Positions 4,795 to 29,397 of a stretch of DNA of 40,602 nucleotides are shown here, one piece after another (position 1 is the stretch's first letter; each line of letters begins with the position of its first letter). Both the position numbers and the translations under genes were made by a program. Under the pieces are notes generated by a model. It saw only the letters and a program-made list of their open reading frames with translations, did no database searches and was not told where the DNA came from. Source of the DNA: a virus; IMG/VR virus record IMGVR_UViG_3300046516_000910, positions 1 through 40,602 of that record; one strand, 5' to 3'.

Positions 4795-5394
4795 ATGCGG
4801 AATCTCGGTCGTGGCTTCTCGGTGCTGTTCGCGGTGACCCTTGCGGCGATGGCGCTGCTCGGCCTCTCTCCGCACAACGCGAGCGCGCAACAGATCTACA
4901 CGCGCACGGTGTCACTGCCTTGGAACGGCGGCACGGTCTACACGAAGAGCTTCACGGCATCGGCCACCGACACTGGCTTCGTGACGCTGCCCTCGGACAT
5001 TGCGTGGGACGTCTACCAGAACGCGGCGGGCACGAATAGCTGGATGCGCCTCGAGTTCTACACGCCCACGGCGGCTGCGAATGCCGACACCGTTCGATAC
5101 ATGGTTCAGCCCTCGTTCAACACGAACGGCAATGGCCCCGCGAGCTACGTCTATCCCTTCGTCGATTACCGGGATCAGACGGCCGCGATCACGAACTCGG
5201 CGACGATCGCACGCGGCGGTGGATCCTTCGGTCTTGTATTCACAGGCTACCTGCAGTCCTCGACCTCCGCGCCGCTGACGCTGATTCAGAGCTATCTGCC
5301 GCCGGGTTCACGCCTGAAGATCAGCGGCGATCCGAACGGCGCGCTCGCGAACCTCCGCGTCCAGATCACCTACCTGTCGCACTTCCCGAAGTAG
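4795..5394 (+). CDS. Secreted beta-rich protein with signal peptide (199 aa)
   Basis: ATG 4795 follows gggaggggtggg and starts a clear Sec signal: basic MRNLGR, hydrophobic SVLFAVTLAAMALLGL, cleavage after NASA. The mature part is about 165 residues, rich in Ser/Thr/Tyr and beta-strands (YTRTVSLPWNGGTVYTKSF, VRYMVQPSFNTNGNG, LRVQITYLSHF), with no recognised domain. It lies immediately before the terminase genes. The gene at 22324 has an almost identical ribosome-binding leader and the same signal-peptide layout. Export by a phage outside the lysis genes is unusual; it could be an envelope-facing decoy or a virion decoration. Confidence 0.65.
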   Translation: MRNLGRGFSVLFAVTLAAMALLGLSPHNASAQQIYTRTVSLPWNGGTVYTKSFTASATDTGFVTLPSDIAWDVYQNAAGTNSWMRLEFYTPTAAANADTVRYMVQPSFNTNGNGPASYVYPFVDYRDQTAAITNSATIARGGGSFGLVFTGYLQSSTSAPLTLIQSYLPPGSRLKISGDPNGALANLRVQITYLSHFPK

Positions 5395-5395
5395 C

Positions 5396-5905
5396 GTGGC
5401 GCGTACCGGGCGCCCGCCCGGAACCACGGGAATCAAGCAGCGTCTGAGCGACGCCGCCATCGAGCAGCGCCGGGCCGCGGCCAAGAAGCCGCGGCGCCGG
5501 CGTAAGCTTTCGGCCCCCGAGCGCAAGGGCCTGGACGAAGCCGTCCGCATCGGGCGCGCGCTCAACCCCCAGCTCATGCGCCTCGCCCAGCGCAAGGCGA
5601 ACCTCGAGGAGAAGTTCCTCAACCTGCTCGAGCGCGAGATGAAGTCCGGAAACGTGGACCTCGATCGCGTCGAGCAGCTCATGCGCGTGACGATGCGCGC
5701 CGGCGAGTTCGGCACCTTCTCGGGTCAGGTCTGGGACCGCTTCGGCCAGCCGCGCAAGCTCAAGGCCGAGGTCGACCTCCACGCCGCTCCCCGCATCTTC
5801 CTGGATTTCCCCGAGATGGATGCCGCCTGGGAAGCGGCGGAGGACGCGCATGCTCGCAGCCCTGGTGGCGGCGCTGGTCATGCTAACGGCGCAACACGCG
5901 GCTAG
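5396..5905 (+). CDS. Putative small terminase subunit
   Basis: A 169-aa protein, GTG start one base after the previous stop. The N-terminal 40 residues are very basic (MARTGRPPGTTGIKQRLSD, KKPRRRRK), then long helices (RALNPQLMRLAQRKANLEEKFLNLL, LDRVEQLMRVTMRAGEFG). It overlaps the large terminase start by 56 bases. Position and DNA-binding character fit a TerS that recognises the packaging site, but there is no sequence motif specific enough to prove it. It could also be another small DNA-binding packaging factor. Confidence 0.5.
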   Translation: MARTGRPPGTTGIKQRLSDAAIEQRRAAAKKPRRRRKLSAPERKGLDEAVRIGRALNPQLMRLAQRKANLEEKFLNLLEREMKSGNVDLDRVEQLMRVTMRAGEFGTFSGQVWDRFGQPRKLKAEVDLHAAPRIFLDFPEMDAAWEAAEDAHARSPGGGAGHANGATRG

Positions 5906-7469
5906 CGACGCGCTCGACGCGCGCATCCGTCGTCTGGCGCCGCACAACGACTCGCCGGCCCAGAAGGACGCGCTCCGCTCGACCGCGCCCCAGCTCGCGT
6001 TCATGGGACGCCGGCACGGGGGCAAGAGCTGGGTGACCTGCGCCAAGGCGGCGAAGATCGCCGACCACTACGGGCCGAACCATCGGCGCCGCTACCCCTC
6101 GGCGCAGTGCCTCCTCGCCCGCGAAGAGCGCGCCTCGATGACGACCACGGTGGTCCGCACCATGCGCGTCGAGATCCTGGGCGAGGAGCTGTTCGCCGCG
6201 CTCTACCGCGCCGGCGACGACAGCTTGTACTTCCCGAACGGGTCCTCGATCGCGTTCCGCGGGCTCGACCAGCCCAAGCGCATCCTCGGCATGCGCTACA
6301 TGTTCATCGGGATCGACCAGGCCGAACAAATTGACGAGGAACAGGCCGAGACCGCGATCTCCGGAACGATGCAGGCCGGGATGCCGTGGGGACAGTTCTT
6401 CTGCGCGTTCAACCCGGACAACCCCGAGCATTGGGCCTACCTGCGCTACCACCCGGACGACGGCGACGGGCCCCGCTACGATTCGAAGGGTCGGCACTTC
6501 GCGGACGTCGTGCACGTCCAGGAGAACGACCTCATGGGCATCCTCTCCGAGGAGCAGCGGGACGTGTTCGACCGCCTCTCGGGGATCTGGCGCGAGCGGC
6601 TCCGGTACGGCCGCTGGGTCGCGTTCACGGGCATCGTCCACGATCTCTGGGACCCGGGGATCCATGTGATCTCGAACGTCCCCAACGCCGGCGGCTACCG
6701 GGTGCCGGAGAGCTGGGCCGAGTGGGGCGGCTACCCGCCTCCCGACTGGCGCCGGTGGCGCGGGATCGACTTCGGCTACAACCCCGACCCCTACTCGGTC
6801 GGGTGGCTCACGCTCTCGCCGGACGGCGTCTGGTACGTCTACCGGCAGGAGTATCGGCTCAAGCTCACGCTCGATCGTCAGGTCGACCGGATCCTCCGCT
6901 ACGAGCACCAGGAGAAGGCGCGGGTGAAGGCGGCCGCGAAGCGCTTCGACATCCTCGAGCGCGAGGCCGGCCGGGTTTCGAACCGCTGGGACGAGTGTCG
7001 GGACGTGGTCGAGGGCGGCATGATCTTCGCCGGCGTGAGCGACCACGGCGCGGACCAGCGCGCGTTCTACGCCAAGCGCGGTATCAAGTCGTGGCCGGCG
7101 AACAAGGACATCTGGGCCGGCCTCGAGACCGTCCGCAACCTCATGGACCCTGCGCAGGAGGGCGGCCCGCGGCTGTTCGTCGTCTCGAATGAAGCGGGCC
7201 CGGGGCTGGGGCTCACGCAGCGCGACAAGCTGCTCGAGGAAGCCGCTCGCCCGACCTGCCTGCAGGAGGAGATGGGCCGCTACCTGTGGGGCGTCTCCAA
7301 GACCGCCGCGGGCGCGAAGGTCATGAAGGACCTGCCCGTCGACGCGAACAACCACGGAAACGACTGGCTCCGCTACGTGCTCCACACCTTCACCAGCCGG
7401 CGTGCCACGCTGGTCGACCGCACTCCGCCAGGCCGCAAGCGCATGGACGAGGACGAGTCGCTGTCATGA
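5850..7469 (+). CDS. terL: Large terminase subunit (ATPase and nuclease)
   Basis: A 539-aa packaging motor. The start at ATG 5850 has GGAGGA in front. Walker A is GRRHGGKSW (about residues 53-61), Walker B is MFIGIDQAEQ (D156, E159). The C-terminal RNase H-like nuclease has three acidic sites: GIDFGYNPDPY (D307), GVSDHGADQ (D398), and NNHGNDWLRY (D505). The protein pumps DNA into proheads through the portal and cuts concatemers. It is followed by a small membrane gene and then the portal, in a coupled chain. Confidence 0.93.
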   Translation: MLAALVAALVMLTAQHAASDALDARIRRLAPHNDSPAQKDALRSTAPQLAFMGRRHGGKSWVTCAKAAKIADHYGPNHRRRYPSAQCLLAREERASMTTTVVRTMRVEILGEELFAALYRAGDDSLYFPNGSSIAFRGLDQPKRILGMRYMFIGIDQAEQIDEEQAETAISGTMQAGMPWGQFFCAFNPDNPEHWAYLRYHPDDGDGPRYDSKGRHFADVVHVQENDLMGILSEEQRDVFDRLSGIWRERLRYGRWVAFTGIVHDLWDPGIHVISNVPNAGGYRVPESWAEWGGYPPPDWRRWRGIDFGYNPDPYSVGWLTLSPDGVWYVYRQEYRLKLTLDRQVDRILRYEHQEKARVKAAAKRFDILEREAGRVSNRWDECRDVVEGGMIFAGVSDHGADQRAFYAKRGIKSWPANKDIWAGLETVRNLMDPAQEGGPRLFVVSNEAGPGLGLTQRDKLLEEAARPTCLQEEMGRYLWGVSKTAAGAKVMKDLPVDANNHGNDWLRYVLHTFTSRRATLVDRTPPGRKRMDEDESLS

Positions 7470-11057: not shown

Positions 11058-12764
11058 GTGAAGAAGACCAAGCTGGCCTCAGGACTCGAGATTGTCGAAC
11101 TCGAGCTGAGCGACGGCGATCTCGGGAACCCCGGCGCGTATCTCGCCAAGGTCAACGCATGGAACGTGGAGAACTTCGCTCTGCTCCATGCCGAGGTTCA
11201 GGCGCTGAAGGATCCGAACCACTCGAAGATCGCCGAGCGGCTCGAGCTGATGGAGAAGACGGTCGCCGCGGCCCACGCCAAGGCGGTCGAGGCGTTCGAG
11301 AAGTCGGTGATCCTGGAGAAGGCGAAGCCGGACATCGATCGCAACCTCGACCTGCGCCTGTTCGGAACGCTCGCGCTCAACCACGATCCGGCGGTGCTGA
11401 ACTTCAAGGGCGACGCCTGGTACAAGAGCAAGTTCACCTCGAGCGAACCCGGGGAGAACGCCTCGCGGCGCCTGTTCTTCAACCTGCTCACCTGCGACAT
11501 GGACGACCTCGCCGGCTTCGACGACAAGTCGGTGGCGCTCCTGAACCGGCTGCGCGCGCTCAACGATCGCCTGACGTGCGAGGACGTCGTCGCGCGGCAT
11601 CCCAAGAGCGAGTTCCGGGAGGCCTACCTGAAGGCCGGCGGCATGAAGTCGCTGCAGGCCTGGAAGGCGTGGGAGAACCTGGCCCACCAGATGAAGCTGG
11701 CCGCGTCCGAGGCCGACGCCAACGCGGGAACCGGCGCCGAGTGGGTGCCGACCGGCGTCTCGTTCCAGCTCATGCCGGACGTCTGGCCCGAGCTGGCGAT
11801 GATGAACCAGGTCCCGAGCGTCCCGATGGCGCGCTCGCCGATGCTGTTCACCGTCCAGAACCCGTTCGGAGAGGCGAAGCTGCTGACCGAAGCGCTGGAC
11901 GACACCGAGGCGACCAACACCAACATCTACCCGGCGACGCTCACCACGCGCAACGTCACGCTGACCGCCCGGAAGTTCGGCGAGGTCGTGTGGCACTCCT
12001 CGGAAATCGAGGAGGACTCGGTTCCGAACATCGCGGCTGCGATCCGGGCGACCGGCGTGTTCGCGATCGAGGCGGCGCGTGAGAACTGCGGCGTGAACGG
12101 CCAGGCGTCGGCCATCTCGGGCGCCTACGGGACGTTCCCGACCTCCGGCCAGACCACGAGCACCTTCGACACCGGCGTCACCTTCCTGGGGACGGCGAAC
12201 TCGGAGGACTCGCGGCGCGCCTACGACGGTCTGCGCTACCTCGCCTTCCTGGCGGGCGTGGCGGAGGACGCGAGCGCTGGCCTGACGGTCGATCACCTGG
12301 CGAACCTGCAGGCGAAGCTGGGCCGCTTCAGCATGCCGGAGCAGTGCTTCTTCTGGTCGAGCTACATCGGCCGGGCGCGCCTGCTGACGCTGCGTGACGC
12401 GAACCAGACGGCGGTCATCCTGACGGCGGAGAAGGCCGGCGGCGTCGGCTCCTTCCGTTCGGGAGTGGTCGGCAAGATCTTCGGCGTCTCGGACCTGGTG
12501 ACGAGCTACTACCAGTCCCAGGACCTGAACGCCGGCGGGATCGACGTTGGTGGTGGTGGTGGCTGCACCCAGATCGGCGTCGCGAACCGGGTCCGTCTCA
12601 TCAACGGAACGGTGCGCCTCACCCGCGTCGAGGTCAGCCGCGAGAACCGCTTCCAGCAGGACCAGATCGGCGTGAAGTTCACCGCACGCTCGATCATGAA
12701 GTCCACGGTCCAGCCGTCGAGCACGGACCAGCCGTTCGGAACGATCAACGGTATCGCGGCGTAA
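11058..12764 (+). CDS. Major capsid protein, HK97 fold
   Basis: A 568-aa protein, GTG start with GGAGG 5 bases upstream. The first 170 residues are charged and helical (IVELELSDGD, KIAERLELMEKTVAAAHAKAV), like an N-terminal delta/scaffolding domain. The rest has typical HK97 capsid blocks: a P-domain strand and helix with TLTTRNVTLTARKFGEVVWH, then EDSVPNIAAAIRATGVFAIE, and the C-terminal RVEVSRENRFQQDQIGVKFT. It would assemble the icosahedral shell and be trimmed by the protease encoded just upstream. It is flanked on both sides by structured non-coding elements. Confidence 0.88.
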   Translation: MKKTKLASGLEIVELELSDGDLGNPGAYLAKVNAWNVENFALLHAEVQALKDPNHSKIAERLELMEKTVAAAHAKAVEAFEKSVILEKAKPDIDRNLDLRLFGTLALNHDPAVLNFKGDAWYKSKFTSSEPGENASRRLFFNLLTCDMDDLAGFDDKSVALLNRLRALNDRLTCEDVVARHPKSEFREAYLKAGGMKSLQAWKAWENLAHQMKLAASEADANAGTGAEWVPTGVSFQLMPDVWPELAMMNQVPSVPMARSPMLFTVQNPFGEAKLLTEALDDTEATNTNIYPATLTTRNVTLTARKFGEVVWHSSEIEEDSVPNIAAAIRATGVFAIEAARENCGVNGQASAISGAYGTFPTSGQTTSTFDTGVTFLGTANSEDSRRAYDGLRYLAFLAGVAEDASAGLTVDHLANLQAKLGRFSMPEQCFFWSSYIGRARLLTLRDANQTAVILTAEKAGGVGSFRSGVVGKIFGVSDLVTSYYQSQDLNAGGIDVGGGGGCTQIGVANRVRLINGTVRLTRVEVSRENRFQQDQIGVKFTARSIMKSTVQPSSTDQPFGTINGIAA

Positions 12765-14148: not shown

Positions 14149-14820
14149 GTGATCGCCGTGACCGCAACGGGCATCGATCACGTGCAGGCGAACCTCAAGG
14201 GGGCCGCGGCTGGATTCGATCGCGCCAGCTACAACACGATCGTCAAGGGCTCGATCACGCTCCACGCCATGCTCGACCGCCAGCTCGACGGGCCGAAGGG
14301 CTGGGACGACTTCTGGGGTGCGACATCTCCGAAGGGGCCTTTCCTCGGGTCGCGCACGGGCCAGACGCGATTCCACCTGACGCACGGTGGATTCGCCTAC
14401 CGCACCGCCGGTGGCTGGCAGGCGGCGATCGGTTCTCCCGATGCCCATGTCGTGCTGCACGAACTCGGCGGCCGGCGCGGCAAGTCGATCATCCCGACCG
14501 CGGCGGCCCAGCGCAAAGACTCGGGGACCTTCCGGTGGCCGGGAATCCAGTCCTGGAGCGAGATACCGGGGATCTTCAACTTCCCCTCGCAGGCGATGCG
14601 CAACAGTTCGAACCCCGCGGTCGCGGCCAAGTACCGGAACATGAAGCCGTGGTTGGCCCGTGTTGAGGATGGCAAGGTGCGACTTCTCGGACTCATCGTG
14701 CCGAGCGTCACGTATCGCGCACGCGGCATGTTTGCCGCCGTCCATGAGAAGATCGAGCCCGTCATCCTCCAGATGGGTCAGTTCGAAGCCGCGCTGGTGG
14801 TGAAGGCCGCCAATGCCTAA
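14149..14820 (+). CDS. Neck or tail-completion protein (HK97 gp10-like candidate)
   Basis: A 223-aa protein with GTG immediately after the connector stop. The N terminus (TATGIDHVQANLKGAAAGFD) and the middle GGRRGKSIIPTAAA are like minor structural proteins of the HK97 gp10 group, which close the head or join the tail. No strong motif; the call rests mainly on position. It overlaps the next gene by 8 bases. Confidence 0.5.
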   Translation: MIAVTATGIDHVQANLKGAAAGFDRASYNTIVKGSITLHAMLDRQLDGPKGWDDFWGATSPKGPFLGSRTGQTRFHLTHGGFAYRTAGGWQAAIGSPDAHVVLHELGGRRGKSIIPTAAAQRKDSGTFRWPGIQSWSEIPGIFNFPSQAMRNSSNPAVAAKYRNMKPWLARVEDGKVRLLGLIVPSVTYRARGMFAAVHEKIEPVILQMGQFEAALVVKAANA

Positions 14821-15301
14821 CCGCGCCCCGTCGACCATCAATCGAGTCGCCGATGGCGTGCTCGAGATCTTCCGCAAGAACGTCGAGGACCACCCGGACA
14901 AGTGGTTCATGATCCCGCGGTCCTGGGAGCGCGGCGTGGGCCCGCAGACGATCGGCCTCTCGGATCCGGTGTTCTGCGTGAGCCTGAACGGCGACTCGCG
15001 CCCGATCGCTCAGCGCCTCATGGGCTACGGCCAGAGCGAGACGACCATCACCGTGACGATCTTCGGCCGGCACTCGCGGGCCGACTACGCGCTCGGCGAG
15101 ATGCTCGCGGACCTGTGGCGCGTGGTGATGGAAAACCGCCAGCTGACCGGCGTGGACGATCCGGACAACCCGACGCTGCTCGCGGGGTTCATCGCGATCG
15201 GCAACACGAAGATGGCGTCGGTCTCGAACCCGACGCTCGGCGAATTCACGATCGAGCAGGAGATCGTGGTGAACTACACCTGGAGCAGCTCGGCTCCATA
15301 G
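14813..15301 (+). CDS. Putative tail terminator protein
   Basis: A 162-aa protein starting at ATG 14813, overlapping the previous gene by 8 bases. It has an early helix (RVADGVLEIFRKNV), a beta meander with QSETTITVTIFGRHSRADYALGE, and a C-terminal strand FTIEQEIVVNYTW. Size and placement right before the tail tube gene are those of gpU-like tail terminators, which stop tube growth and join tail to head. Assigned by synteny. Confidence 0.5.
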   Translation: MPNRAPSTINRVADGVLEIFRKNVEDHPDKWFMIPRSWERGVGPQTIGLSDPVFCVSLNGDSRPIAQRLMGYGQSETTITVTIFGRHSRADYALGEMLADLWRVVMENRQLTGVDDPDNPTLLAGFIAIGNTKMASVSNPTLGEFTIEQEIVVNYTWSSSAP

Positions 15302-15310
15302 GAGAGAACG

Positions 15311-16336
15311 ATGCCAACTCCCGGTTTTGGTTTCCTCGGCACGTTCCAGTTCGCCCGTGAGGCGACCTGGGGGACGAAGCCCACGATCACCAAGCGCTTC
15401 CCGTTCTTCAAGGCCAACGCGCGGCCGGTGCTCGAGCGGATCCGCCCTCAGCTCCTGGACGGTGGGCTTTCGATGTTCCCGACCGTTTCCGGCCCCCAGG
15501 GTGCTCGGCTGTCGCTGACGATTCCGGTGACCTACTCGCACTGGAACCTGCTCTGGGACCTGATCCTCGGCACCAGCACCTACGGATCGAACGGCGGGAC
15601 GACCACGGGCATCGATCCGTACACGCACACCTTCGGCTACAGCACCGGCGCCGGGTTCAAGAACCTCGCGAACTCGCTCGCGGCTGAGATCGTGATGGGG
15701 AACATCTCCGCATCGACCTGCGCGGTGGTGACCGGCCAGAAGATCATCAGCGCCAAGTTCCGCTGCAGCGCCGGCATGTCCGCCGCGGACCAGATCCTGA
15801 CCTGCGACCTCGAGTTCTTCGGCAAGCGGTTCCAGGACGCACAGTCTCCGACCTCGATCGGGATCATCACGACCCCGAACCTCGACTACGTCATGTTCCA
15901 GCACCTGACGGAGCTGTGGGATGGATCCCAGGCCGGCGTGACTGGCAACCTGACGCAGTCGTTCGAGCTGAACGTCGAGACCGGCATGTCCGAAGACCGC
16001 GTGTTCATGGAAGGCACCGGCTTCGTCGCCGAGCCCCATCGCAAGGCGAAGCCGAAGATCACCTGGAGCGTCACCAAGGAGTTCCAGGACCTGGCCGGTC
16101 TGGACGCCTACATCGCGAACACCAAGGGCGTCGGCCAGGCGACCTTCGTGCTCGACTCGAATCGCTACCTGAAGATCACCACGGCGCACGGCCTCATGCA
16201 GTCGCCCGACGCCCCGATCGAGGGCGAGGGATTCATCCAGCAGAAGTTCGTCTGGGAGTCTGAGGACGCCGGCGGCTCGACGCCCTCAACGATGGGCGTG
16301 GAAGTTAAGAACCACGTCGCTACCATCACCGCTTAG
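15311..16336 (+). CDS. Major tail tube protein (putative)
   Basis: A 341-aa protein, ATG 15311 with GGAGAG upstream. Features are FGFLGTFQFAREATWGT at the start, long beta-rich stretches, and the C-terminal SVTKEFQDLAGLDAYIANT. It lies just before the split chaperone gene and tape measure, the standard place of the tail tube protein. It is long for a tube subunit (often 150-300 aa), so it may carry an extra surface domain. Assigned by synteny and general character. Confidence 0.65.
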   Translation: MPTPGFGFLGTFQFAREATWGTKPTITKRFPFFKANARPVLERIRPQLLDGGLSMFPTVSGPQGARLSLTIPVTYSHWNLLWDLILGTSTYGSNGGTTTGIDPYTHTFGYSTGAGFKNLANSLAAEIVMGNISASTCAVVTGQKIISAKFRCSAGMSAADQILTCDLEFFGKRFQDAQSPTSIGIITTPNLDYVMFQHLTELWDGSQAGVTGNLTQSFELNVETGMSEDRVFMEGTGFVAEPHRKAKPKITWSVTKEFQDLAGLDAYIANTKGVGQATFVLDSNRYLKITTAHGLMQSPDAPIEGEGFIQQKFVWESEDAGGSTPSTMGVEVKNHVATITA

Positions 16337-16345
16337 GAGCAGACC

Positions 16346-18425: not shown

Positions 18426-19219
18426 TGGGAACCGGGCTCAAGTTCGCGGTGACGAACCTCGCCGAGGCGGCCACGCTGAAGAACGACACCGGGGGTGGAG
18501 CGCCCGCGCGCGACGAAGTGACCCCGTTCGTCATGGAGAACGCGCTCACGAACGATTCGTCGCTGGTCTGGCAGGCCACAGGTGCCGGGTTCTACGACCT
18601 CGACCTCGGTGCGGACTACACCATCGGTCTGATGGCGGCGCTCGGGCAGCGGGGCTCGCCCTGGACCACCGCGGGGATCTCCTCGATCGTCACCAAGTAT
18701 TCCTCGACGGCGAACGGGTATCCGCCCGTCTCACTCAACCCCTGGACGACCTTCGGAACAATCACGATGGGAGCCGGCGTTCGCCGCGCGGTCGTGGGAA
18801 CGGTGGGCGTCGTGGCTCTGAACGTCCGCTACGTTCGATTCGACATCACCGCATCTACCGCATTCACGCTGGGAAGGATCTTCGTTGGGAGCTTCGAGTA
18901 CGACCTCGGGCAGATTGCTTCGCCTGGGCGCCGGCGCCGGCGGATCCTGCCGCGGCTGCGGAACGAGGTCGGGGCGAACCCGACCATCTCGCGCGTGGCC
19001 GAGGACTACTTCCAGTACGAGCTGGACTACGACCACGCCCTCGATGCCCTGTTCGCGAAGCTCGAGGCGGTCGCGACCCAGAACCAGCCGGCGTTGATGA
19101 TCGAGACGGACGGTTCTGCCCACGAAGTCGTGCTCACCGATGACACCTTCGAGGAGTCGCTGATGTTCGATTCCCCGAACCAGCGCAACGCCGGTCTCCG
19201 GCTGCGTACCCTGGCCTAG
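18425..19219 (+). CDS. Distal tail-type protein
   Basis: A 264-aa protein, ATG in a TGATG junction. The first about 160 residues resemble a galactose-binding-like beta-sandwich (FYDLDLGADYTIGLMAALG, VRYVRFDITASTAFTLGRIF). The C-terminal part has DYFQYELDYDHALDALFAKL and ends LRLRTLA. Position directly after the tape measure and before the large hub protein is that of Dit/gp27-like baseplate proteins, which start tail assembly and may bind host sugars. Family not proven. Confidence 0.55.
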   Translation: MGTGLKFAVTNLAEAATLKNDTGGGAPARDEVTPFVMENALTNDSSLVWQATGAGFYDLDLGADYTIGLMAALGQRGSPWTTAGISSIVTKYSSTANGYPPVSLNPWTTFGTITMGAGVRRAVVGTVGVVALNVRYVRFDITASTAFTLGRIFVGSFEYDLGQIASPGRRRRRILPRLRNEVGANPTISRVAEDYFQYELDYDHALDALFAKLEAVATQNQPALMIETDGSAHEVVLTDDTFEESLMFDSPNQRNAGLRLRTLA

Positions 19220-22200
19220 ATGGCGACCGCCGCGTTCAACGCCCGCTGGCTGTCGGCCGAGCGCGGGGACGTCGCGATCCTGGTGAAGGTCGAACTCACC
19301 GATCCGACTCCGCTCACGCTCTATCTCTCACACCGCGACTTCGTTCTGCTCGAGACGACGCTCGCCGGTGTGAAGCGAGGCTGGGAGGCCGCTCTGGACG
19401 ACATCGGTCCAATCGTCCACAACGGATCCCTGGGCGCGCTCGATCCCGCGCTTGCGACCTTCGACTTCCACATCGCCCCGAAGCGCCTTGCTTCGCAGGC
19501 GGCCGCGGCACAGGCGCCCGACCTGTTCTTCGGGTACCACTGGCGGGGCGCCGCGGTGACCGTCTACCAGTGGCCGCTGGGGCTCGATCAGTTCCTCACG
19601 AACGGGCACCAGATCTTCTCGGGCGTGGTGATCGACTACCAGACCGAGAACATCGGGGTGCGGGTCTACTGCCAGCAGGACAACTCCTGGATCCGGCGGG
19701 TGCCCGACATCGAAGTGACGCGCGCGAAGTTCCCGCGGGCCTCGGAGAAATCGATCGGTCTGCCCGTGTCGGTCTGCTACGGCGACCTGCGGGACGACCC
19801 GGCGCGGCCGCCGGCGACGGACTTCGATACCTTCCGCCAGGCGTTCACCTCCATCGCCGGAATGACCCGGGCCGGTGTTCGTGGCGTGACGACGAGGATC
19901 GGAACCGGGGGCGCCGGACAGAAGGGCGAGGTTCTGTTCGCCAGCCATGCCTGCAAGCTATTCAACGATGACGCGAACGGATCGACGCCGGCGATCGAAC
20001 TGTCGAATCGGCTCTCAGAGATCGATCCGGATGGCGCGCTGGTGCTCAATGCGGCGGGGGGAACCGGGTTCGATTTCATCGACATCACCAGCGCCGGCGT
20101 GCAGCCGTTCAACGTGTTCTACCCGGTGATGCCGATCGACTCGAGCCAGCCGGCGGCAACGCCCGGCGAGAACCCCCGCGCCGCGACCGATGTGTGGAAC
20201 GACTCGAGCTACGCCGTGCTCGACTACAACAACAACAAGCGCGAGATCCGGTTTCCGCTTCCGGACGTACCTCCGCAGGGCCTGGCGCTGCTCGTGAAAT
20301 TCGCGATGGCCTATCTGACGTCCGCGGGCGCGACCCATCTGCGCGTCGAATTGAACGACGGTGCGATCGCTACCGGAACGACCACGATCGCCGCATCGAC
20401 CGCTCGAACGGGAGCGGGCGGCACGCTCAGCGGGGTCGGCGGATCGCCTGTGGGCAACGGATGGGAATTCGGGACCTACGGGACGTTCCTTCGCGTCTAC
20501 TTCACTGGCGTCGCCACGGGAGAGACCGCAAAGATCTTCGGAGTGGGCCTCGCCATTCAGTGCCGTCCGCAGTGGCCCGTGGTGACGCCGGCGCGCGTAA
20601 TCCGGGTCCCCGATCGATACGACTACCGCTGGGTCCACAAGATCTGGGGTGGCGCGTCGCGGCACTGGTACACGGTCTACAAGGACGAGCTCGTCCCCGA
20701 GCGCGATCGGGTCGATGCGGTGTTCTTCGCGACGCTGAAGGGTTACGCAGACTCGGGTGGCGCCTTCACCGGGACGGGCACCGACCTGATCGAGCGGCCC
20801 TGCGACGTGATCAACCACTTCCTCCAGACCTACTGCGGTGTGGCGAGCGCAAGCGTCGAGACCGGGGGGGGCGTCAACGGTTCGTTCGTGGACGCGCGCG
20901 CGCAGCTCGTCACCTGGCGGGGCTCCGACATGAAGGTCGCGCTCGCCATCGATGAGTTCACCGACACCGCCGCGGTGCTCCGGAACCTCTGCGCCGGCGG
21001 GTTCGGGTGGGCGTTCATCTCGAGGCTCACGGGCAAGTGGAAGTTCATCCCCTGGCACACTGGGCTCACCACGAACGCGCCCCGCAAGCTGAGCCGGTGG
21101 GACCTCATGGACCAGTCAGGTCCCAAGCTGATCCCGCATCGGGACGACGTCCTCAACGACCTGACCGTCCGATTCGGGTATGACGCCTACCAGCGATCGA
21201 CGGTCCACGAGACCTTCGTGGGGCCAGCGCGCTCCAGCTCGGGGTACTTCTTCCGGAAGCTCCGCGACGAGACCGTCGACGTGGTGGCGAGCGAGTCCGA
21301 TCGGCTCGATTTCAGCGACGGCACGAATCGCACCGTCAACCTGACGCCCGGCACCTACACTCCGATCGGCTTCGCCCAGCATCTCGCCGGCCTGGTCGCG
21401 GCGGTCACCACGAACGGCGTCTGCCAGATCGCCTGGGGCTTCCAGGTGGTCGCCGGCTACAACGACAAGCTGGACTTCAACGACGGCGCGGCCAGGACCG
21501 CCACGCTGAACGCCGGCGTCTACACGGGCACCACGATGCCCGTCGAGGTCGCCCGGGCCATGAACGCGGTCTCCTCGAGCTGGACCTGCACGTACTCGGT
21601 GACCACCCGGAAGTTCACGATCGACCGGACTGCCGGCACCAAGCTCGCCAAGTTCGCGAGTGGCGCCAACGTCGCCAAGACCTGCGCGCCGATGATCGGC
21701 TACGACATCGCGGACGTGGCCTTCTCGCGGACCAGCGACATCGAGGTCGAGCCCGAGCGGTACGTCTTCGCGCTCAAGACCACGGCGCCGACGCTGCGCT
21801 GGGAGAACGGGGCGAACGGGATCGACGCTGCGACCCCGCGGGCCTGCGGGATGCTTCTGGGCTTCGACATGGCCCGGGACTCGTCCCCGATCGGGTCGGT
21901 GGCGCTCCTCGCCGGAGACAGCCCCAAGAACTCGCGCGAGGCCGACTGCGCGCTCTCCGTCGCCCGCTACGGGAAGCGCCCGGGCCTGACCGTCGACCTG
22001 CGCGCGGTGGCCGATACCGCGACCGCGCGCGAGGTCCGGAACCGGCAGCTCGACTGGCACATTGCTCCGCCGGTCGAGATCCAGTTCCAGGCCGAGCGGT
22101 GCCACGACTTCGACCTGGGCGACGTCTTCGAGTTCGACGCGACGATGGATGAGATCCAGGGGTTCTTGGTTCCCGACACGAACGGGAGCTGGGTGGGGAA

Positions 22201-22285
22201 GCGGTTCATCGTGACCAGCATCGTGCAGCACTGCATGCCCACGGTGCACCAGGAGATCACGGCCTTCTACGATCCCGAGTCGTAG
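19220..22285 (+). CDS. Tail tip/hub protein (1021 aa)
   Basis: The largest protein of the window, starting directly after the previous stop. It is beta-rich, with an N-terminal domain containing PLTLYLSHRDFVLLETTLAG and FSGVVIDYQTENIG, and a region GKWKFIPWHTGLTTNAPRKL as in tail hub or central fibre proteins. It contains an internal pair of similar segments: RLDFSDGTNRTVNLTPGTYT (about residue 694) and KLDFNDGAARTATLNAGVYT (about 748). It likely forms the tail tip that penetrates the envelope. The gene ends with three stops in a row (TAG TGA TAG). Confidence 0.7.
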   Translation: MATAAFNARWLSAERGDVAILVKVELTDPTPLTLYLSHRDFVLLETTLAGVKRGWEAALDDIGPIVHNGSLGALDPALATFDFHIAPKRLASQAAAAQAPDLFFGYHWRGAAVTVYQWPLGLDQFLTNGHQIFSGVVIDYQTENIGVRVYCQQDNSWIRRVPDIEVTRAKFPRASEKSIGLPVSVCYGDLRDDPARPPATDFDTFRQAFTSIAGMTRAGVRGVTTRIGTGGAGQKGEVLFASHACKLFNDDANGSTPAIELSNRLSEIDPDGALVLNAAGGTGFDFIDITSAGVQPFNVFYPVMPIDSSQPAATPGENPRAATDVWNDSSYAVLDYNNNKREIRFPLPDVPPQGLALLVKFAMAYLTSAGATHLRVELNDGAIATGTTTIAASTARTGAGGTLSGVGGSPVGNGWEFGTYGTFLRVYFTGVATGETAKIFGVGLAIQCRPQWPVVTPARVIRVPDRYDYRWVHKIWGGASRHWYTVYKDELVPERDRVDAVFFATLKGYADSGGAFTGTGTDLIERPCDVINHFLQTYCGVASASVETGGGVNGSFVDARAQLVTWRGSDMKVALAIDEFTDTAAVLRNLCAGGFGWAFISRLTGKWKFIPWHTGLTTNAPRKLSRWDLMDQSGPKLIPHRDDVLNDLTVRFGYDAYQRSTVHETFVGPARSSSGYFFRKLRDETVDVVASESDRLDFSDGTNRTVNLTPGTYTPIGFAQHLAGLVAAVTTNGVCQIAWGFQVVAGYNDKLDFNDGAARTATLNAGVYTGTTMPVEVARAMNAVSSSWTCTYSVTTRKFTIDRTAGTKLAKFASGANVAKTCAPMIGYDIADVAFSRTSDIEVEPERYVFALKTTAPTLRWENGANGIDAATPRACGMLLGFDMARDSSPIGSVALLAGDSPKNSREADCALSVARYGKRPGLTVDLRAVADTATAREVRNRQLDWHIAPPVEIQFQAERCHDFDLGDVFEFDATMDEIQGFLVPDTNGSWVGKRFIVTSIVQHCMPTVHQEITAFYDPES

Positions 22286-22323: not shown

Positions 22324-23082
22324 ATGCGAGTGCGTGGGGTGCTTCACCTGTTCGCGGCTGCGGCCTTCGCAGCGATGTTGGCAGCGGTCCCCGCGCTCGC
22401 GACTGTCGGCGACGGCGGTGTGATCCGGTCGAACGAAACCGGCGGTGTGATCTCCGTGAAGGGCGCCGATGGGAAGGGCCACTTCCTCTCCGGCAGTAAT
22501 AACGGCGCCGTCGCGATCTCGAATCCGCCGCAGGGCTGGGTCTACCGCTACCAGTCCGTGATCCAGGACACGATGTCCCGCTGGGCTGGCACCCAGCAGG
22601 GCGCGCGTGCTCCCGATACCAGCGCGGTCTACAAGGCGGACGGCGCCACCACCTGGGTCGTGGAGATCTTCCCGACCTATACGCCGACCTCGGCCGGCCA
22701 CCTGCTCGCAGTCTCCTTCGGGCGGCATCCCGTCCAGTCGCGCGACTCGCTCTCGACCTACGTCCCGGTTCTCCGCTACTCGCATCCGGTCGGCGTGACC
22801 GGCGGGACCGTTCCCGATTCGCTCGGCAGCATGGTCGATCTCCAGTCGAACGTCGCACAGCCCACGTTCAAGGATTCGCTGGCGCTGCAGGGCGAGACCG
22901 TTCTCCCGATCGGGCCCGGCCCGCAGCCGCGGGGCCGCTCCTACCGCTTCGACGGTGTCACCGCCGACTGGATCTCTCTCCGCGTTCGGCTCCTGCAGTC
23001 CTTCACCGGGACCAGCATCGTGCCCTCCGATGGAACCGGCCTGGTGCTCACGTTCCGAATCAATCTGTACGGCTACCGATGA
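22324..23082 (+). CDS. Secreted beta-rich protein with signal peptide (252 aa)
   Basis: ATG 22324 after ggggaggggtgg. A clear Sec signal: basic MRVRG, hydrophobic VLHLFAAAAFAAMLAAV, cleavage after PALA. The mature part is beta-rich (GGVISVKGADGKGHFLSG, TTWVVEIFPTYTPTSAGH, LVLTFRINLYGYR), no family recognised. Its leader and signal layout are very like those of the 4795 gene. It lies among tail-fibre type genes, so it could be a tail decoration, but a signal peptide would send it to the periplasm or outside. Confidence 0.6.
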   Translation: MRVRGVLHLFAAAAFAAMLAAVPALATVGDGGVIRSNETGGVISVKGADGKGHFLSGSNNGAVAISNPPQGWVYRYQSVIQDTMSRWAGTQQGARAPDTSAVYKADGATTWVVEIFPTYTPTSAGHLLAVSFGRHPVQSRDSLSTYVPVLRYSHPVGVTGGTVPDSLGSMVDLQSNVAQPTFKDSLALQGETVLPIGPGPQPRGRSYRFDGVTADWISLRVRLLQSFTGTSIVPSDGTGLVLTFRINLYGYR

Positions 23083-25319
23083 TCCGCGCGACGGCGATGC
23101 AGGTGGCCGTGCTGGTCTGGTGCGCGCTGGTCTTGCTCGCGTTCGCGGTCCTCGGGTTGGGGGACGCGATCTTCCATAGCGAGACTCGAGAAGAGCGGAG
23201 GGCCCGCATGGCGAAGTACCCCGATCCCTACGGCAACCGAGCGCGCGGATCCCTCGGACAGATCGAGACGTGCATCAAATTCATGCTGGTCCTCGCCCTG
23301 ATCGCGACGTCGGCGCATGCGACTGGCCGGACCGGCGTCCTGGTGATCCGCCACCCCATCGATGCAGCCGCGGTTACGACCACGCCTCAGAACTTCCAGA
23401 CGGCCTGCCAGATCACCGAGGGCCATCTCCTGCAGCGCGGCGCGGTCGATGCCGTGGTGCCGGCGAGCGCCTGCGTCACCGCGGACGTATCGAATAACCG
23501 ATTCATCATGGATGGAGTGACCACCCAGGCGGCCATCACGGTCCACGAAAACTGGGCCATGAGCGTCACGCACGGGTTGTACCCGGCCGCCTTTGCGCCG
23601 TGGACGTTCCTCTCGGGAACCACCTGGCCCACCGGACCGCAGATCTGGTTCATCACGCCGGTCAACGGATGCGGGATCGATGCCCCCGCGGCCGGGGATT
23701 CGATGGGCGTCGCCGACTGCTATACGCCCCCGACTCCGAGCGGAACCTACTACGACACCTCGAATCCGGGGCGGCGATGGAAGAACCTCTACGCCACGGG
23801 CAAGTCCGCGGTGCGATGCAATGCGAGCAACGGTGTCTCCGGATGCACGACTCCGGTCGGCGGGATCCTGCGCTGCGTGGTCGGCTACAAGGCGAGCAAG
23901 AACAACGATGGCTCGAACGGCAAGGACATCGACTCGCTCCGCGTCCTGACCGGGTCCACCGAAGACTCGATGGCCGTGTGGACCTGGGAGCGGTTCGCGG
24001 GCGATCCGGCCCGGCAGATCTTCTGCATCGCCGGCGCCGGCGGGATCTTCGATGACGGCTGCGTGCTGTACGCCTACGCGCTCGGCGAGAGCACCTGCGT
24101 ACAGAACGGCGACACCATGTTCCCGGACCGCGATGCGATGACTCAGGAGTACGGCGTCGGTGCCTCGCGCGCGAACGGGCTCGGCCATCCGGACGGGGTC
24201 AATCTGTACTACGGCGGGAGCTACTGCCCGAAGGCCGACTCCTGCGACATCTCCAACGAGCGCGCCGGGTGCGACACGCTCGCCAGGCATGGGGTGAACT
24301 TCACCGCGTTCGTAGATCCGGAGAGCCTGTCGACCGGAACCAACGCGACCATGATCGCGATGCTCAAGGGTTACCAGAACGTCTCCTTCGCCTTGCAGCC
24401 GGTGTCGGGCACCTACACGGACGCGAGTTCGGCGGCCGCGTCGACCACGCGGATCGGCGGAGCCGGGCGCTGCATCGACCCGATCGGGATCTCGCGCCGG
24501 CGGACGCTGTTCCCGTACGCGCTCGGGGCATCGGCCCGTTTCGACACGCTGAGCTGCGTCGCCGATTCGGGATCGGTCGCCTGCAACCTGATCAACGGGT
24601 GGAAGGCCCTGGTCGCCGCTGTGGGCGTCGATCGCATCGACTGGACTCTGCTCCCGGCCGCCTTCGACTGGACGCCCCAGGAGTGGACCTCGGCGGCCGC
24701 AGGCACCGTCCAGCTCGCCGGCTCCAATCCGAACAAGACGGTGACACTCCTCGGCGGGCAGGATTCCCTGGTGGCGGCCTTCGTCGCGGCGGACATCAAG
24801 ACCGTCCTGTTCTCGCCCACGATCATCGGCGGCAACGTGGGCGTCGGCTGGTCCGCTGAAGGCGGCGCACTGACCGGCAAGAGCGCCCCGGCGGGATGGC
24901 AGGCGAACGAGTCCCAGCTACGTTTCAAGTGGGGCGGAGTCACGTACGAAGGTGTCTCGCTCATCGGAACGCGCTGGGAGCCCAGCTCGGCCACGTACAA
25001 GTGGTACGCCAGCTCACATGCCGGCATCGGGAACGAGTGGGAGGCAGGCGCGGTGACCGGGAAGTTCTACCTGATCGACGCAGGCTCCTACTACAAGCAC
25101 AGCTTCTACACGTCGACGCGGGGGTTCGTGGTGCCGTTCTCCATGTTCGGCGGCCCCCTCCCGAACCCCTGGCCGCAGTTCCCGGGCATCCGGCAGATCG
25201 TGTGGCTCACCGATGCCTGGAAGGGCGCCGATGCCCACCTGCCGACGCGCGCGGACGGCACGCGGGGATCCTTCGCGAAGTGGGTCAGGTTCGACATGCT
25301 GAAGCCGGGGATGCGGTGA
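23079..25319 (+). CDS. Large exported protein (746 aa), possible receptor-interacting or virion protein
   Basis: ATG 23079 overlaps the previous stop. The N terminus has a membrane helix (VAVLVWCALVLLAFAVLGL), a basic linker, then a second hydrophobic stretch MLVLALIATSAHA with a signal-peptidase-like site before TGRTG (start alternative 23283). The remaining 660 residues hold many cysteines (CDTLARHGVNF, AGRCIDPIGI) and stretches such as FTAFVDPESLSTGTNATMIA that recall glycan-active or deacetylase-like folds, without catalytic motifs I can name. Many cysteines suggest folding outside the cytoplasm. Function unknown. Confidence 0.55.
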   Translation: MIRATAMQVAVLVWCALVLLAFAVLGLGDAIFHSETREERRARMAKYPDPYGNRARGSLGQIETCIKFMLVLALIATSAHATGRTGVLVIRHPIDAAAVTTTPQNFQTACQITEGHLLQRGAVDAVVPASACVTADVSNNRFIMDGVTTQAAITVHENWAMSVTHGLYPAAFAPWTFLSGTTWPTGPQIWFITPVNGCGIDAPAAGDSMGVADCYTPPTPSGTYYDTSNPGRRWKNLYATGKSAVRCNASNGVSGCTTPVGGILRCVVGYKASKNNDGSNGKDIDSLRVLTGSTEDSMAVWTWERFAGDPARQIFCIAGAGGIFDDGCVLYAYALGESTCVQNGDTMFPDRDAMTQEYGVGASRANGLGHPDGVNLYYGGSYCPKADSCDISNERAGCDTLARHGVNFTAFVDPESLSTGTNATMIAMLKGYQNVSFALQPVSGTYTDASSAAASTTRIGGAGRCIDPIGISRRRTLFPYALGASARFDTLSCVADSGSVACNLINGWKALVAAVGVDRIDWTLLPAAFDWTPQEWTSAAAGTVQLAGSNPNKTVTLLGGQDSLVAAFVAADIKTVLFSPTIIGGNVGVGWSAEGGALTGKSAPAGWQANESQLRFKWGGVTYEGVSLIGTRWEPSSATYKWYASSHAGIGNEWEAGAVTGKFYLIDAGSYYKHSFYTSTRGFVVPFSMFGGPLPNPWPQFPGIRQIVWLTDAWKGADAHLPTRADGTRGSFAKWVRFDMLKPGMR

Positions 25320-25831
25320 AGTATTCCTTCGGCACGCTGCGGCCGTCTGGCAGCGCCGGCGATCGCGATCTCGGGACCGGGATCAGCGGGACGTTCACGA
25401 ACTCCGGGGGCTCTCCTCAGAGCGCCACGGTCGCGACGGCACCTGTGGCGTTCGTGCCCGGCGGTCTCGCCGGCATCGCCCTGGATGGCGTGCTGTTCTC
25501 GGTCGCGGTTTCGAAGGCGATCGACGCCGGCGTCACGATCACCTCGGGCCCGCGAGTGATCTGGATCTACAACACGCTCGAGGGGCAGGAGGACATTACC
25601 GCGGACGGGACCGTGCAGGATCTCCCGATCTCGAGGTTGGAGCCCGCCGCGCTCCCGTGGACCGGCACGAAGCTCCAGGCGACCACGGTGAAGGTCGAGA
25701 TGGACGTCCTGGTCCCCGCGGGCAAGAGCGCCACCATCATGTTGCTCGAGCTGTTCGCCGAGGCGGTGACGCTCGCCAAGTTCATGTCCGGTGGCAGCGC
25801 CGGCGATCTGGTGTCCGAGGGGGTCGCGTGA
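25316..25831 (+). CDS. Tail/fibre-type beta protein (171 aa)
   Basis: GTG start in a GTGA overlap. Begins MKYSFGTLRPSGSAGDRDLG and is largely beta (ATVATAPVAFVPGGLAGIAL, TTVKVEMDVLVPAGKSATIM). No signal peptide. It and the next gene look like short structural tail proteins of the distal tail region. No family assigned. Confidence 0.55.
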   Translation: MKYSFGTLRPSGSAGDRDLGTGISGTFTNSGGSPQSATVATAPVAFVPGGLAGIALDGVLFSVAVSKAIDAGVTITSGPRVIWIYNTLEGQEDITADGTVQDLPISRLEPAALPWTGTKLQATTVKVEMDVLVPAGKSATIMLLELFAEAVTLAKFMSGGSAGDLVSEGVA

Positions 25832-26178
25832 ACGTCGTGCGGCTGGGCGGCATGGTCTGGAACGATCCGGATTCCGACGTCGTTCTGACGCTGAAAGATG
25901 ACGCGGGCAACCTCATCGATTTTACCGGGGCGGCCAACTTCGGCCTGGTCTGCACTTCCCTCGACGGGCTCGACGTGTTCACGGTGGCCGGCGCGATCTT
26001 CGGCCTGGCGACGTCTGGCGCGCTCCGCTTCGCGGCCGTCGCCGGCGAGGCCGCCGAGCCCGCGGCCACGGTGCACCGCTCCTACCTGTGCATGCCACAG
26101 TGGCACGCCTCGGGGCAGACCGACTTCAGCTGGGCCCGCACCCAGTGGTCCTTCTGGATCCAGAAGTTCCCCGCGTGA
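25828..26178 (+). CDS. Small tail-type beta protein (116 aa)
   Basis: GTG start in a GTGA overlap. The N-terminal half (VVLTLKDDAGNLIDFTGAA) resembles the beta-sandwich start of baseplate upper proteins such as BppU, which carry receptor-binding parts. The C-terminal end is aromatic (FSWARTQWSFWIQKF). It precedes the lysin in the coupled chain. The family link is weak. Confidence 0.5.
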   Translation: MNVVRLGGMVWNDPDSDVVLTLKDDAGNLIDFTGAANFGLVCTSLDGLDVFTVAGAIFGLATSGALRFAAVAGEAAEPAATVHRSYLCMPQWHASGQTDFSWARTQWSFWIQKFPA

Positions 26179-26654
26179 AGCTCCCGGTCCCCGGTCTCTC
26201 GCTCGAGCAGCAGCCGCCCGAGATCCTGCTCGCGATGCTGGTATGGGGCGAGGCGCGCGGCAAGCCACCCACGGACGACGCCGCGGTCGCCTGGACGGCG
26301 AAGAACCGATCGATTCGATCCGGCCGTCCGATCGCCCGCGAGATCCTCAAGCCCTGGGCGTACTCCTGCTTCAACGACGAGGCGCACGAAGGTGAGCGCG
26401 AGAAGATGCTCGATCCCTGCGCGCACGACTCGGTCGCGGCATGGGCGAACGCGCTGGCGATCGCCGAGGGCGTCATGGCCGGCAGCATCCCGGACCCGAC
26501 CGATGGCGCGACCCACTACGTGGTCGAGCGACTGTGGAACAACCCGACCCCCGCGGGGCATCGCATCCAGTGGTACCACCAGGCGGAGATCGAGTCGGGC
26601 CGGACCGAGAAAACGGTTCAGCTCGGCCCACACGTTTTCGCGAGGGCCGCATGA
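26175..26654 (+). CDS. SleB-type cell wall hydrolase (endolysin)
   Basis: A 159-aa protein, GTG in a GTGA overlap. It has the Hydrolase_2/SleB layout: LLAMLVWGEARGKP with the probable catalytic Glu26, AYSCFND, and ALAIAEGVMAGSIPDPTDGATHYV. The family are lytic transglycosylase-type enzymes cutting peptidoglycan glycan strands. No signal peptide, so it needs a holin to reach the wall. The following small membrane genes are natural holin/spanin candidates. Confidence 0.82.
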   Translation: MKLPVPGLSLEQQPPEILLAMLVWGEARGKPPTDDAAVAWTAKNRSIRSGRPIAREILKPWAYSCFNDEAHEGEREKMLDPCAHDSVAAWANALAIAEGVMAGSIPDPTDGATHYVVERLWNNPTPAGHRIQWYHQAEIESGRTEKTVQLGPHVFARAA

Positions 26655-27142: not shown

Positions 27143-27490
27143 GTGCCGAACGCCGAGGACGTGAAGGACCACGTCGTGGCCCACGGGAAGTGGTACGGGA
27201 TCGCGGCGACTCTGCTCGGCCTGCTGATCGATGCGCTGCTAAAGGCGCGGTCGGACAACACCGCCCACCAGCGCAGCGACGCGGAGATGTCGCTCGAAGC
27301 CTCGGTCGCCGAGGTTCAGATGGTGCAGCAGGCGCAGATCGATTCGCTCAAGCTGCGGGTTGGGAAGGTCGAGAGGAAGAAGGGCGTCCGCACGGTGATC
27401 GTCGTGGATACCCTGGCGGTGAAGAAGCGCGGGAAGGAGTCGCACGGCTTCTGGTGGCACTTCACGCATATCGATGGGAAGGAGCACTGA
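27143..27490 (+). CDS. Membrane-anchored coiled-coil protein (115 aa), possible lysis accessory
   Basis: GTG 27143. A short hydrophobic helix (WYGIAATLLGLLIDALL) is followed by a coiled coil (MSLEASVAEVQMVQQAQIDS, LKLRVGKVERKKG) and a short tail with His and Trp residues (HGFWWHFTHID). It resembles the 26651 product in layout. The two may form a pair (spanin or holin-antiholin like), but there is no family evidence. Confidence 0.5.
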   Translation: MPNAEDVKDHVVAHGKWYGIAATLLGLLIDALLKARSDNTAHQRSDAEMSLEASVAEVQMVQQAQIDSLKLRVGKVERKKGVRTVIVVDTLAVKKRGKESHGFWWHFTHIDGKEH

Positions 27491-27492
27491 TC

Positions 27493-29397
27493 ATGTTTCG
27501 CCGACTGCTCGCGGTCCTGTTGCTCCTGGTGCAGGTCTCTCCGGCCGACGCCTACTTCCTGAACCACGACCCCCTGGTGGGAAACGACGCCGCCAACGGC
27601 AAGACGCCACAGACCGCGTGGAAAACCGTCGCCAAGGCCAACGCGAGTCTGCCCTCGGACTCCACGATCTGGGTCTCCGCCAACGCCGAGCTCTACGACT
27701 CATCCGTGAACCCGACCGGCTTCCGCACCATCTGGCGCGGCGACACCACCAACGCGCGCGGGGTCAAGTTCCCGGGGGCGAGCCTCTACACGCCGGGGAA
27801 TCAATTCATCGGCGTCTCGTTCTGGGGCGGCGTCAACTGCAACGACTGCCAGTTCCGGAACGGGCGCGATCAGTTCTTCCGGAAGTGCGGACTCTACGGA
27901 TTCGTCTACGCGCTCTCGAGCGGGCAGGGTTTCTACAGCTGCGAGATCGGATCGAGCAACGTCCCCAACTTCACGCAGATCTGGATCAATCCGAACTTCT
28001 CCAACGGGGACTCGCTCCGGTTCATCTCGAACACCATGTACCTCAAGAACGGCAACGCCTCGGCGGGAGACTTCCTGCTCAGCTTCCTGCCGGTGCGCTA
28101 CGACTGGGCGCACGACTACCGGACCATGAACCGATGGACGGTGACCGGAAACGTCTGCACGCTCTCCGTCGCGGCCGGATCGGTGATGGGCAAGCTCATG
28201 ATGTGGAACCACATCACCGGATCGACGATCGATGGGAACCAGTTCTTCTGGCGCGACTCGAGCGGCATGACCAACGGCACGCAGGCCATGTGCGTCCGCG
28301 ATTCCTTCAGCCGAAACGTCGTGAGCAACAACCTGTTCCAGTTCCACTCGATGACGCCGGGCACCGGCCAGTGCGTGGCCGAGATCTACAGCTCGGGGAG
28401 CTTCTACCCGGACTCGGGGAATCACTGGCGCGACAACACCTTCAAGTCCGACATCTCCCGACCGGAGTCGGCGCCGGCGGCATTCACGTTCCACTGGCAG
28501 CTCGGCGGCCGGGACTCGATCCTGCGGAACAGGTTCATCTCGAACACGGCGTTCCCGGCCTGCTACTTCGGCGACGTGAAGCCCGCGGACTCGGCGTTCG
28601 TCCGGAACAACCTGTTCGCGAACCTGAACGGCGGCGCCGGGCTCACCGTCGACCTGTCGGGGTGTAGCTGGAGCACCGGCGCCACGCTGAACATGGACAA
28701 CAACATCTTCTACGGGCCGCGGACCAGCGAGGGCGTGCTCCTGCTCGAGTACCCGATCGCGACGCCGGCATCGATCAGCTCGAACTTCAACCTGTTCTGG
28801 TCTCCGCTGGCTGGGACGCGCGCGGAGTTCGTCGGGGCCTGCTCCGGATCCGAGGTCCCCTACGCGGTCGGCAGCCACTCGATCTACGACCGGAACTCGA
28901 CCTATGGGTGCCCGGTGTTCGCGGACTCGAGCTACGACACGTTCGACGCCACCGTGGCCTGCAACTCCGCGGCGATCGCTTCGGGTCGCTGGGGTGTGGA
29001 CGCTGGCCCGGTGACCTACAACTCCGCGATCTGCGCGCCGAGCCCGATCGCGAATCTGCGCGGAGTCGGCAGCAGCTCCAACGAGGTCATCCTCCAGTGG
29101 ACCTCGCCGGGCGACAAGGGAGACGTCGGGCAGGCCACGCTCTATTCGCTGCGATACTCGGCGTCTCCAATCGACGCCAGTAACTTCGCCGCGGCCGACA
29201 CGGTGGCGTTCCCGGACGTCTACTACCCGAAGGCGGCGGGCAGTGCAGAAGGTGCAACGGTCTCGGGCCTTTCGGCAGCCACCACCTACTACTTCGCCAT
29301 CAAGACCAGAGGGTCGGTGGGCGTCTACTCGGGGATCAGCAACCTGCCCAGCTACACCACTCGCAACTCGAACTCGCTCGGGCACGCCGAGCCGTAG
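27493..29397 (+). CDS. Secreted right-handed beta-helix (pectate-lyase-like) protein with FnIII domain
   Basis: A 634-aa protein, ATG 27493. Signal peptide MFRRLLAVLLLLVQVSPADA with cleavage before YF. The next about 450 residues contain repeated short strands and Asn turns (DAANGKTPQTAWKTVAKAN, NNIFYGPRTSEGV) typical of a parallel beta-helix as in pectate lyases and phage depolymerases. The C-terminal about 110 residues are a fibronectin III domain (EVILQWTSPGDKGDVGQATL, TTYYFAIKTRG). It probably binds or cuts an extracellular polysaccharide. It is exported rather than assembled in the cytoplasm, which is odd for a tailspike. Confidence 0.7.
   Translation: MFRRLLAVLLLLVQVSPADAYFLNHDPLVGNDAANGKTPQTAWKTVAKANASLPSDSTIWVSANAELYDSSVNPTGFRTIWRGDTTNARGVKFPGASLYTPGNQFIGVSFWGGVNCNDCQFRNGRDQFFRKCGLYGFVYALSSGQGFYSCEIGSSNVPNFTQIWINPNFSNGDSLRFISNTMYLKNGNASAGDFLLSFLPVRYDWAHDYRTMNRWTVTGNVCTLSVAAGSVMGKLMMWNHITGSTIDGNQFFWRDSSGMTNGTQAMCVRDSFSRNVVSNNLFQFHSMTPGTGQCVAEIYSSGSFYPDSGNHWRDNTFKSDISRPESAPAAFTFHWQLGGRDSILRNRFISNTAFPACYFGDVKPADSAFVRNNLFANLNGGAGLTVDLSGCSWSTGATLNMDNNIFYGPRTSEGVLLLEYPIATPASISSNFNLFWSPLAGTRAEFVGACSGSEVPYAVGSHSIYDRNSTYGCPVFADSSYDTFDATVACNSAAIASGRWGVDAGPVTYNSAICAPSPIANLRGVGSSSNEVILQWTSPGDKGDVGQATLYSLRYSASPIDASNFAAADTVAFPDVYYPKAAGSAEGATVSGLSAATTYYFAIKTRGSVGVYSGISNLPSYTTRNSNSLGHAEP

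Follow-up and report, generated by a model that had tools for sequence, protein, structure and literature searches.

The question raised by this locus is why a set of late genes lying amid the packaging, tail and lysis genes of a tailed phage should encode proteins bearing signals for export, and where such proteins would act. Export of a single protein, or of a few, is known from phages (viz. Lom, Bor, Llp and the spanins). The window, i.e. the whole stretch of DNA that was analysed, is an IMG/VR virus record of 40,602 bases (GC ~67%). Based on Pfam and PHROG matches it carries an HK97-type head module (a MuF domain fused to the portal, a tail tube protein and a terminase), and further genes encode a tape measure, a 1021-aa hub, a SleB-like endolysin and GroES. 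The comparisons reported here are based on two full relatives. The first of these, G001 (IMGVR_UViG_3300046526_000393; 42,415 bases), is syntenic with the window (terL 45%, portal 38%, MCP 43% and hub 55% identical), and the second, G003 (IMGVR_UViG_3300031576_000143; 40,859 bases), is more distant (terL 30%, hub 33%) and apparently circularly permuted. One other record (L078, IMGVR_UViG_3300046517_001110; 7,957 bases), whose proteins from portal to tail tube are 99-100% identical to those of the window, is the same phage in a different metagenome record. No close relative of the window terminase was found in the genome collection or in bacterial genomes and none of the hub in searches of cultured phages, while the window portal is ~25% identical to the portals of various cultured phages. 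The genes of interest are listed below, where exported proteins are designated by S and the position of their first base.

3547..4188, + strand: sixth candidate, a probable exported protein with a hydrophobic N-terminus, the site PAHSA/PI and 5 Cys in the mature part
4795..5394, + strand: S4795, 199 aa, signal peptide 1-31 (rule scan), directly upstream of terS
5396..5905, + strand: probable small terminase subunit (terS), from its position and a 39% G001 homolog; no signal peptide (cytoplasmic reference gene)
5850..7469, + strand: large terminase (terL), Pfam Terminase_6N/Terminase_3 and PHROG terminase
19220..22285, + strand: tail hub/tip protein, 1021 aa, 55-56% identical to G001 and 33% to G003, no signal; the name is a putative one based on position, as family searches gave no match
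22324..23082, + strand: S22324, 252 aa, signal peptide 1-26 (rule scan), directly downstream of the hub
23079..23282, + strand: small single-TM unit in frame with S23283; the G001 counterpart is a separate ORF, 29569-29790
23283..25319, + strand: S23283, cysteine-rich, 678 aa, 16 conserved Cys in the mature part, 75% identical to G001
26175..26654, + strand: endolysin, Hydrolase_2/SleB-like (PHROG endolysin 2e-11, Pfam Hydrolase_2 6e-5), 80-81% identical to G001, no signal
27493..29397, + strand: S27493, 634 aa, signal peptide 1-18 or 1-20 (rule scan), 13 Cys, C-terminal FN3
29406..29792, + strand: holin-like membrane protein, from its hydrophobic sequence and a weak G001 match; no match in family searches
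29728..30279, + strand: S29728, 183 aa (rule scan), 39% identical to G001 34155-34697, which also has a signal peptide

A rule scan for Sec/SPase I signals, requiring a basic n-region, an uncharged h-region and an AXA-type site, was applied to every called gene. When calibrated on 45 E. coli genes, this rule found all of the exported proteins (4/4) and its remaining matches were all polytopic membrane proteins; in lambda it flagged Lom, Rz, Rz1 and Bor plus the polytopic RexB, and nothing else. The window genes flagged were those at 4795, 22324, 23079, 27493 and 29728, in comparison to 0/17 for the head, tail, packaging and lysin genes and 1/111 for out-of-frame decoy ORFs. All three regions of a signal peptide together with the AXA-type site are seen in S4795, S22324, S27493 and S29728, and for the first three of these cleavage is predicted at NASA/QQ, PALA/TV and VSPA/DA, respectively, a site two residues further on being equally possible for S27493. 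A lipobox with a cysteine at the cleavage site is not clearly present in any of the window signals, and the G001 ortholog of S22324 has a doubtful one (FTGC). The gene 25828-26178 and the lysin were scanned under one joined coordinate pair, and their N-termini, which were then read directly, have no signal. Control phages with 18-24 genes each gave 0/24 (P12026, of Marinomonas), 1 (Nsp-JY10), 1 (Pq0) and 0 (phi38:1) matches under the same rule, and although this control sample is small, the richness of the window in exported proteins is real for a phage of this kind. The scan, its calibration and the decoys thus bear out the signal peptides which an earlier note, made from the letters of this DNA, had read at 4795, 22324, 27493 and 29728. 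We consider it very probable that the set is exported, and five late genes, probably six, carry export signals.

The signal that the same note had placed at the start of 23079 was also flagged by the scan, but the real signal is probably internal, at ATG 23283. The first hydrophobic stretch of this frame is part of a ~65-aa single-TM unit, which in G001 forms an ORF with its own stop; another small TM ORF comes next, and after it the large protein, which carries a signal peptide of its own. The signal of this G001 protein, MRTIARLAALLTLIPAIAGA/TGRTG, matches the sequence that begins at window ATG 23283, MLVLALIATSAHA/TGRTG, and the window protein probably starts, or is cleaved, near this position. 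Started at 23283, the window protein lacks a basic n-region and does not pass the strict rule, whereas its G001 ortholog passes. In the window the single-TM unit and S23283 lie in one frame with no stop between them; 23079-25319 may be a fusion or an internal start may be used, and in either case the large domain is expected to be exported. The assignment of the sixth candidate, 3547..4188, was made by eye: it is preceded in frame by a TM stretch from 3424, it fails the rule from the upstream start, and it has no match in Pfam, PHROG or NCBIfam. A special leader hairpin common to the exported genes was rejected, the leader energies lying inside the background, and the leader GGGAGGGGTGG that is common to 4781 and 22310 is near chance.

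Three positions are occupied by a predicted exported protein in all three genomes. These are the slot before terS (window 4795; G001 11129-11833; G003 34420-34998), the slot after the hub (window 22324; G001 28799; G003 15883-16455, where an unsignalled beta-helix protein, 14342-15868, comes first) and the slot after the holin (window 29728; G001 34155-34697; G003 20156-20503). In all, exported proteins occupy four slots in G001 and three in G003, and S27493 has no homolog in G001. The recurrence of both slots and signals in two divergent relatives supports the view that an exported set is located amid the packaging, tail and lysis genes, as the earlier note had proposed. The mature parts of the window and G003 proteins are hardly alike (pairwise z ~3 for the post-hub proteins), and due to this it is mainly their position that speaks for common descent; S4795 likewise shows weak similarity to the proteins in its slot (global z 3.8 for window-G001 and 2.8 for G001-G003). 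A signal protein before terS is found neither in the partial relative G002 nor in the more distant portal relative L083, and thus the trait is confined to part of the lineage. The phages retrieved as lysin relatives (L075-L077) turned out to be unrelated. One late protein of G003 (18742-19287, L086) is also cysteine-rich, may have a signal and contains an FN3-like stretch (VTAVDSAGNESC); by eye it resembles the end of window 3547-4188 (SVDAAGN), with a local z of only 3.1. Adjoining its lysis region, G003 further encodes a probable lipoprotein with the lipobox LLLAGC (20522-21079, minus strand, L087).

Comparison of the window with G001 shows that conservation is highest in S22324, S23283 and the lysin, the identities being 86% for mature S22324, 75% for S23283 and 80-81% for the lysin versus 30-56% for virion proteins. 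The match in S22324 begins at residue 25, i.e. at the predicted cleavage site, while the two signals are divergent in sequence and have kept their signal-peptide character; this conservation boundary provides indirect support for cleavage and an extracytoplasmic location. In mature S23283 all cysteines (16/16) are kept in G001, and its cysteine content is 2.4% versus 0.85% in 17 unsignalled late proteins, both as would be expected of a protein of an oxidising compartment. In the head, tail and hub genes the fourfold-degenerate sites are nearly saturated (excess identity ~0-0.1; hub 0.03, terL 0.03), whereas the excess is 0.21 for S22324 (135 sites), 0.16 for S23283 (306 sites) and 0.32 for the lysin (75 sites), each of these being, by our estimate, ~three standard errors above zero. 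Read most simply, the block that runs from the end of the S22324 signal as far as the lysin goes back to a younger common ancestor than other parts of the genome do, and strong constraint acts on it as well; the synonymous sites suggest that this envelope-facing block has been swapped more recently than the remainder. In the small TM gene a ~44-base stretch, CGCATGGCGAAGTACCCCGATCCCTACGGCAACCGAGCGCGCGG, is identical in the window (~23205-23250) and G001 (~29708-29755), which, given the near-saturated synonymous sites elsewhere, is possibly a recombination junction or a functional element.

In profile searches of Pfam, PHROGs, NCBIfam and PDB sequences, S4795, S22324, S23283 and S29728 gave sub-threshold chance matches only, and the one known-family match within the exported set is the FN3/purple acid phosphatase N-domain of S27493 (1e-4 to 3.5e-5, under curated cut-offs). 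Over the same FN3 region, S27493 has a weak match to phrog_31 (0.017), and apart from these two no exported protein matched a tail fibre or tailspike family. Searches of cultured phages yielded no relative of S22324, S23283, S27493 or S29728, and the genome collection none of S23283. The body of S27493 looks by eye like a parallel beta-helix, with no match to Pfam beta-helix models. Judged by eye, it is repetitive and beta-rich in a similar way to the beta-helix protein of G003 (14342-15868), which resembles a tailspike or depolymerase; however, the latter is unsignalled and follows the hub, whereas S27493, a signal-bearing protein with FN3, is encoded in the lysis region. S29728 is possibly an 8-strand outer-membrane barrel of the Lom/Ail type. 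It has the signal peptide of such proteins, and a crude strand test counted six candidate strands in it and likewise in Lom, but controls received similar scores and the test is non-discriminating; no outer-membrane barrel family in Pfam, PHROGs, NCBIfam or PDB sequences matched it. Structure prediction, which the earlier note had put forward as a check, was run for S22324 and S23283 with AlphaFold2 on two-sequence alignments, and the models (pLDDT 33 and 28) are unusable. Two further ideas were abandoned: that S23283 is a polysaccharide deacetylase (the GVNFTAFVDPE stretch; no Pfam match, and chance hits only in a PDB search of the segment) and that S4795 and S22324 have a common origin (there is no sequence homology between them). 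Among the neighbouring genes, GroES (30276-30590) lies directly 3' of S29728 (Pfam Cpn10 2.6e-30), its best cultured-phage relatives being ~48% identical, and a ParB-like protein is encoded at 33243-34694 on the minus strand (ParB_N 2.6e-15, HTH_ParB 3.3e-12); a ParB-like ORF was also recognised by eye in G003 (28039-29652).

We give a probability of roughly 0.55 to the reading that the exported set acts at the envelope of the infected cell, in a non-virion role, and by analogy it would most likely be an envelope set of the Lom/Bor/Llp kind that is unusually large and part of the late operon. This reading is preferred because of the analogy with lambda lom and bor, T5 Llp and Rtp45, and because the proteins whose history is linked with the lysin are those which would meet the host envelope. 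In the lambda map, lom is directly 3' of J and bor comes after the lysis genes, and S22324 and S29728, which also bear signals, are in similar slots; however, the present phage shows no sequence match to these proteins, has more exported proteins and has no integrase that could be found. T5 Llp and Rtp45, which block outer-membrane receptors, are likewise phage-encoded and exported (PMC9586334, PMC12685063), export being a prediction for the window proteins, but they are small and Llp is a lipoprotein, whereas the window proteins have no clear lipobox, reach 678 aa and belong to a late operon. The small set of late proteins would leave the cytoplasm via the host Sec system, S29728 after cleavage reaching the outer membrane, S22324 and S4795 acting in the periplasm or at the surface as small beta-rich proteins, and S23283 and S27493 being disulfide-stabilised surface or secreted proteins that would bind or cut polymers of the envelope or outside the cell. 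The likely pay-off would be a blocked or altered receptor, leading to superinfection exclusion and fewer progeny lost to debris, and a surface loosened ahead of lysis by the unsignalled endolysin. The task assigned to each protein is speculative, and the host of this lineage is probably a two-membrane bacterium, judging only from the possible barrel of S29728. Between the roles that the earlier note had offered, action on the envelope or surface has the stronger support in view of the pair that is kept and apparently exchanged with the lysin, the 16 conserved cysteines and the FN3 domain, while attachment to virions after lysis has gained no positive evidence; family and structure searches of the exported proteins showed no enzyme activity or polysaccharide target. 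Against the envelope-directed reading are the lack of a match to any family of known envelope function, the unusable AlphaFold models, the location of S22324 in a slot that is usual for receptor-binding proteins, the absence of cysteine from the mature parts of three of the exported proteins, and the restriction of the trait to part of the lineage. In addition, early synthesis during infection is described for exclusion proteins (PMC9586334), whereas these genes are in the late region.

The post-hub location also underlies a rival explanation, which we regard as doubtful, in which S22324, S23283 and perhaps S27493 would fold in the periplasm and, as adhesins or depolymerases of the virion, would dock on the tail tip or stick to particles after lysis. 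The position immediately following the hub is the usual one for receptor-binding genes, the window and G001 show no obvious fibre gene without a signal there, and both the high conservation and the block exchange would suit an adhesion module. However, tails of tailed phages are assembled in the cytoplasm, we know of no tailed-phage precedent for exported virion parts that join after lysis, and G003, which has an unsignalled beta-helix protein as well as an exported one after its hub, indicates that the exported protein is not required to fill this slot. The specific form of this idea, that S22324 and the disulfide-rich S23283 are tail-tip parts joining the virion at or after lysis, is improbable in our view; if true, it would mean a tailed phage assembled in two compartments, which would be new as far as we know. 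It is similarly unlikely that the hydrophobic N-termini are uncleaved inner-membrane anchors of spanin-like or SAR-like lysis accessories. Several of the genes do lie amid lysis genes, the 23079 unit has a true TM segment, and spanins and SAR endolysins are phage lysis proteins that use Sec; however, the h-regions are followed by AXA-type sites, the conservation of S22324 begins at its cleavage site, the S4795 slot is distant from the lysis genes, the endolysin at 26175 has no signal, and the exported proteins have large unrelated mature domains and no lysis-family match. Less likely still are lysogenic-conversion morons, i.e. exported proteins altering the surface or fitness of a lysogen, of which lambda Lom and Bor, in comparable slots, are exact examples; no tyrosine or serine integrase was found in the window, G001 or G003 (records that may be incomplete), and the genes are on the late strand with no obvious promoter of their own. 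Finally, the signals are most unlikely to have arisen artefactually from the choice of starts and from overlapping frames in GC-rich DNA, as they recur in relatives despite diverged DNA, most of the exported genes have starts free of overlap, several have Shine-Dalgarno-like leaders, and decoys rarely pass the rule. One such case does occur in terL, which from 5850 has a signal-like hydrophobic N-terminus, but this stretch (5850-5905) overlaps terS in another frame and is gone with a later start; the true start is probably downstream, and the case shows that automated signal prediction calls for caution in GC-rich phages.

Based on these results, a phage lineage without cultured members keeps exported late proteins in at least three fixed slots. 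Within this set, the conservation of S22324 and S23283 marks their importance for the contact between the phage and the host envelope, and the set as a whole provides concrete candidates for receptor blocking, for surface remodelling, or for a virion part assembled outside the cytoplasm.
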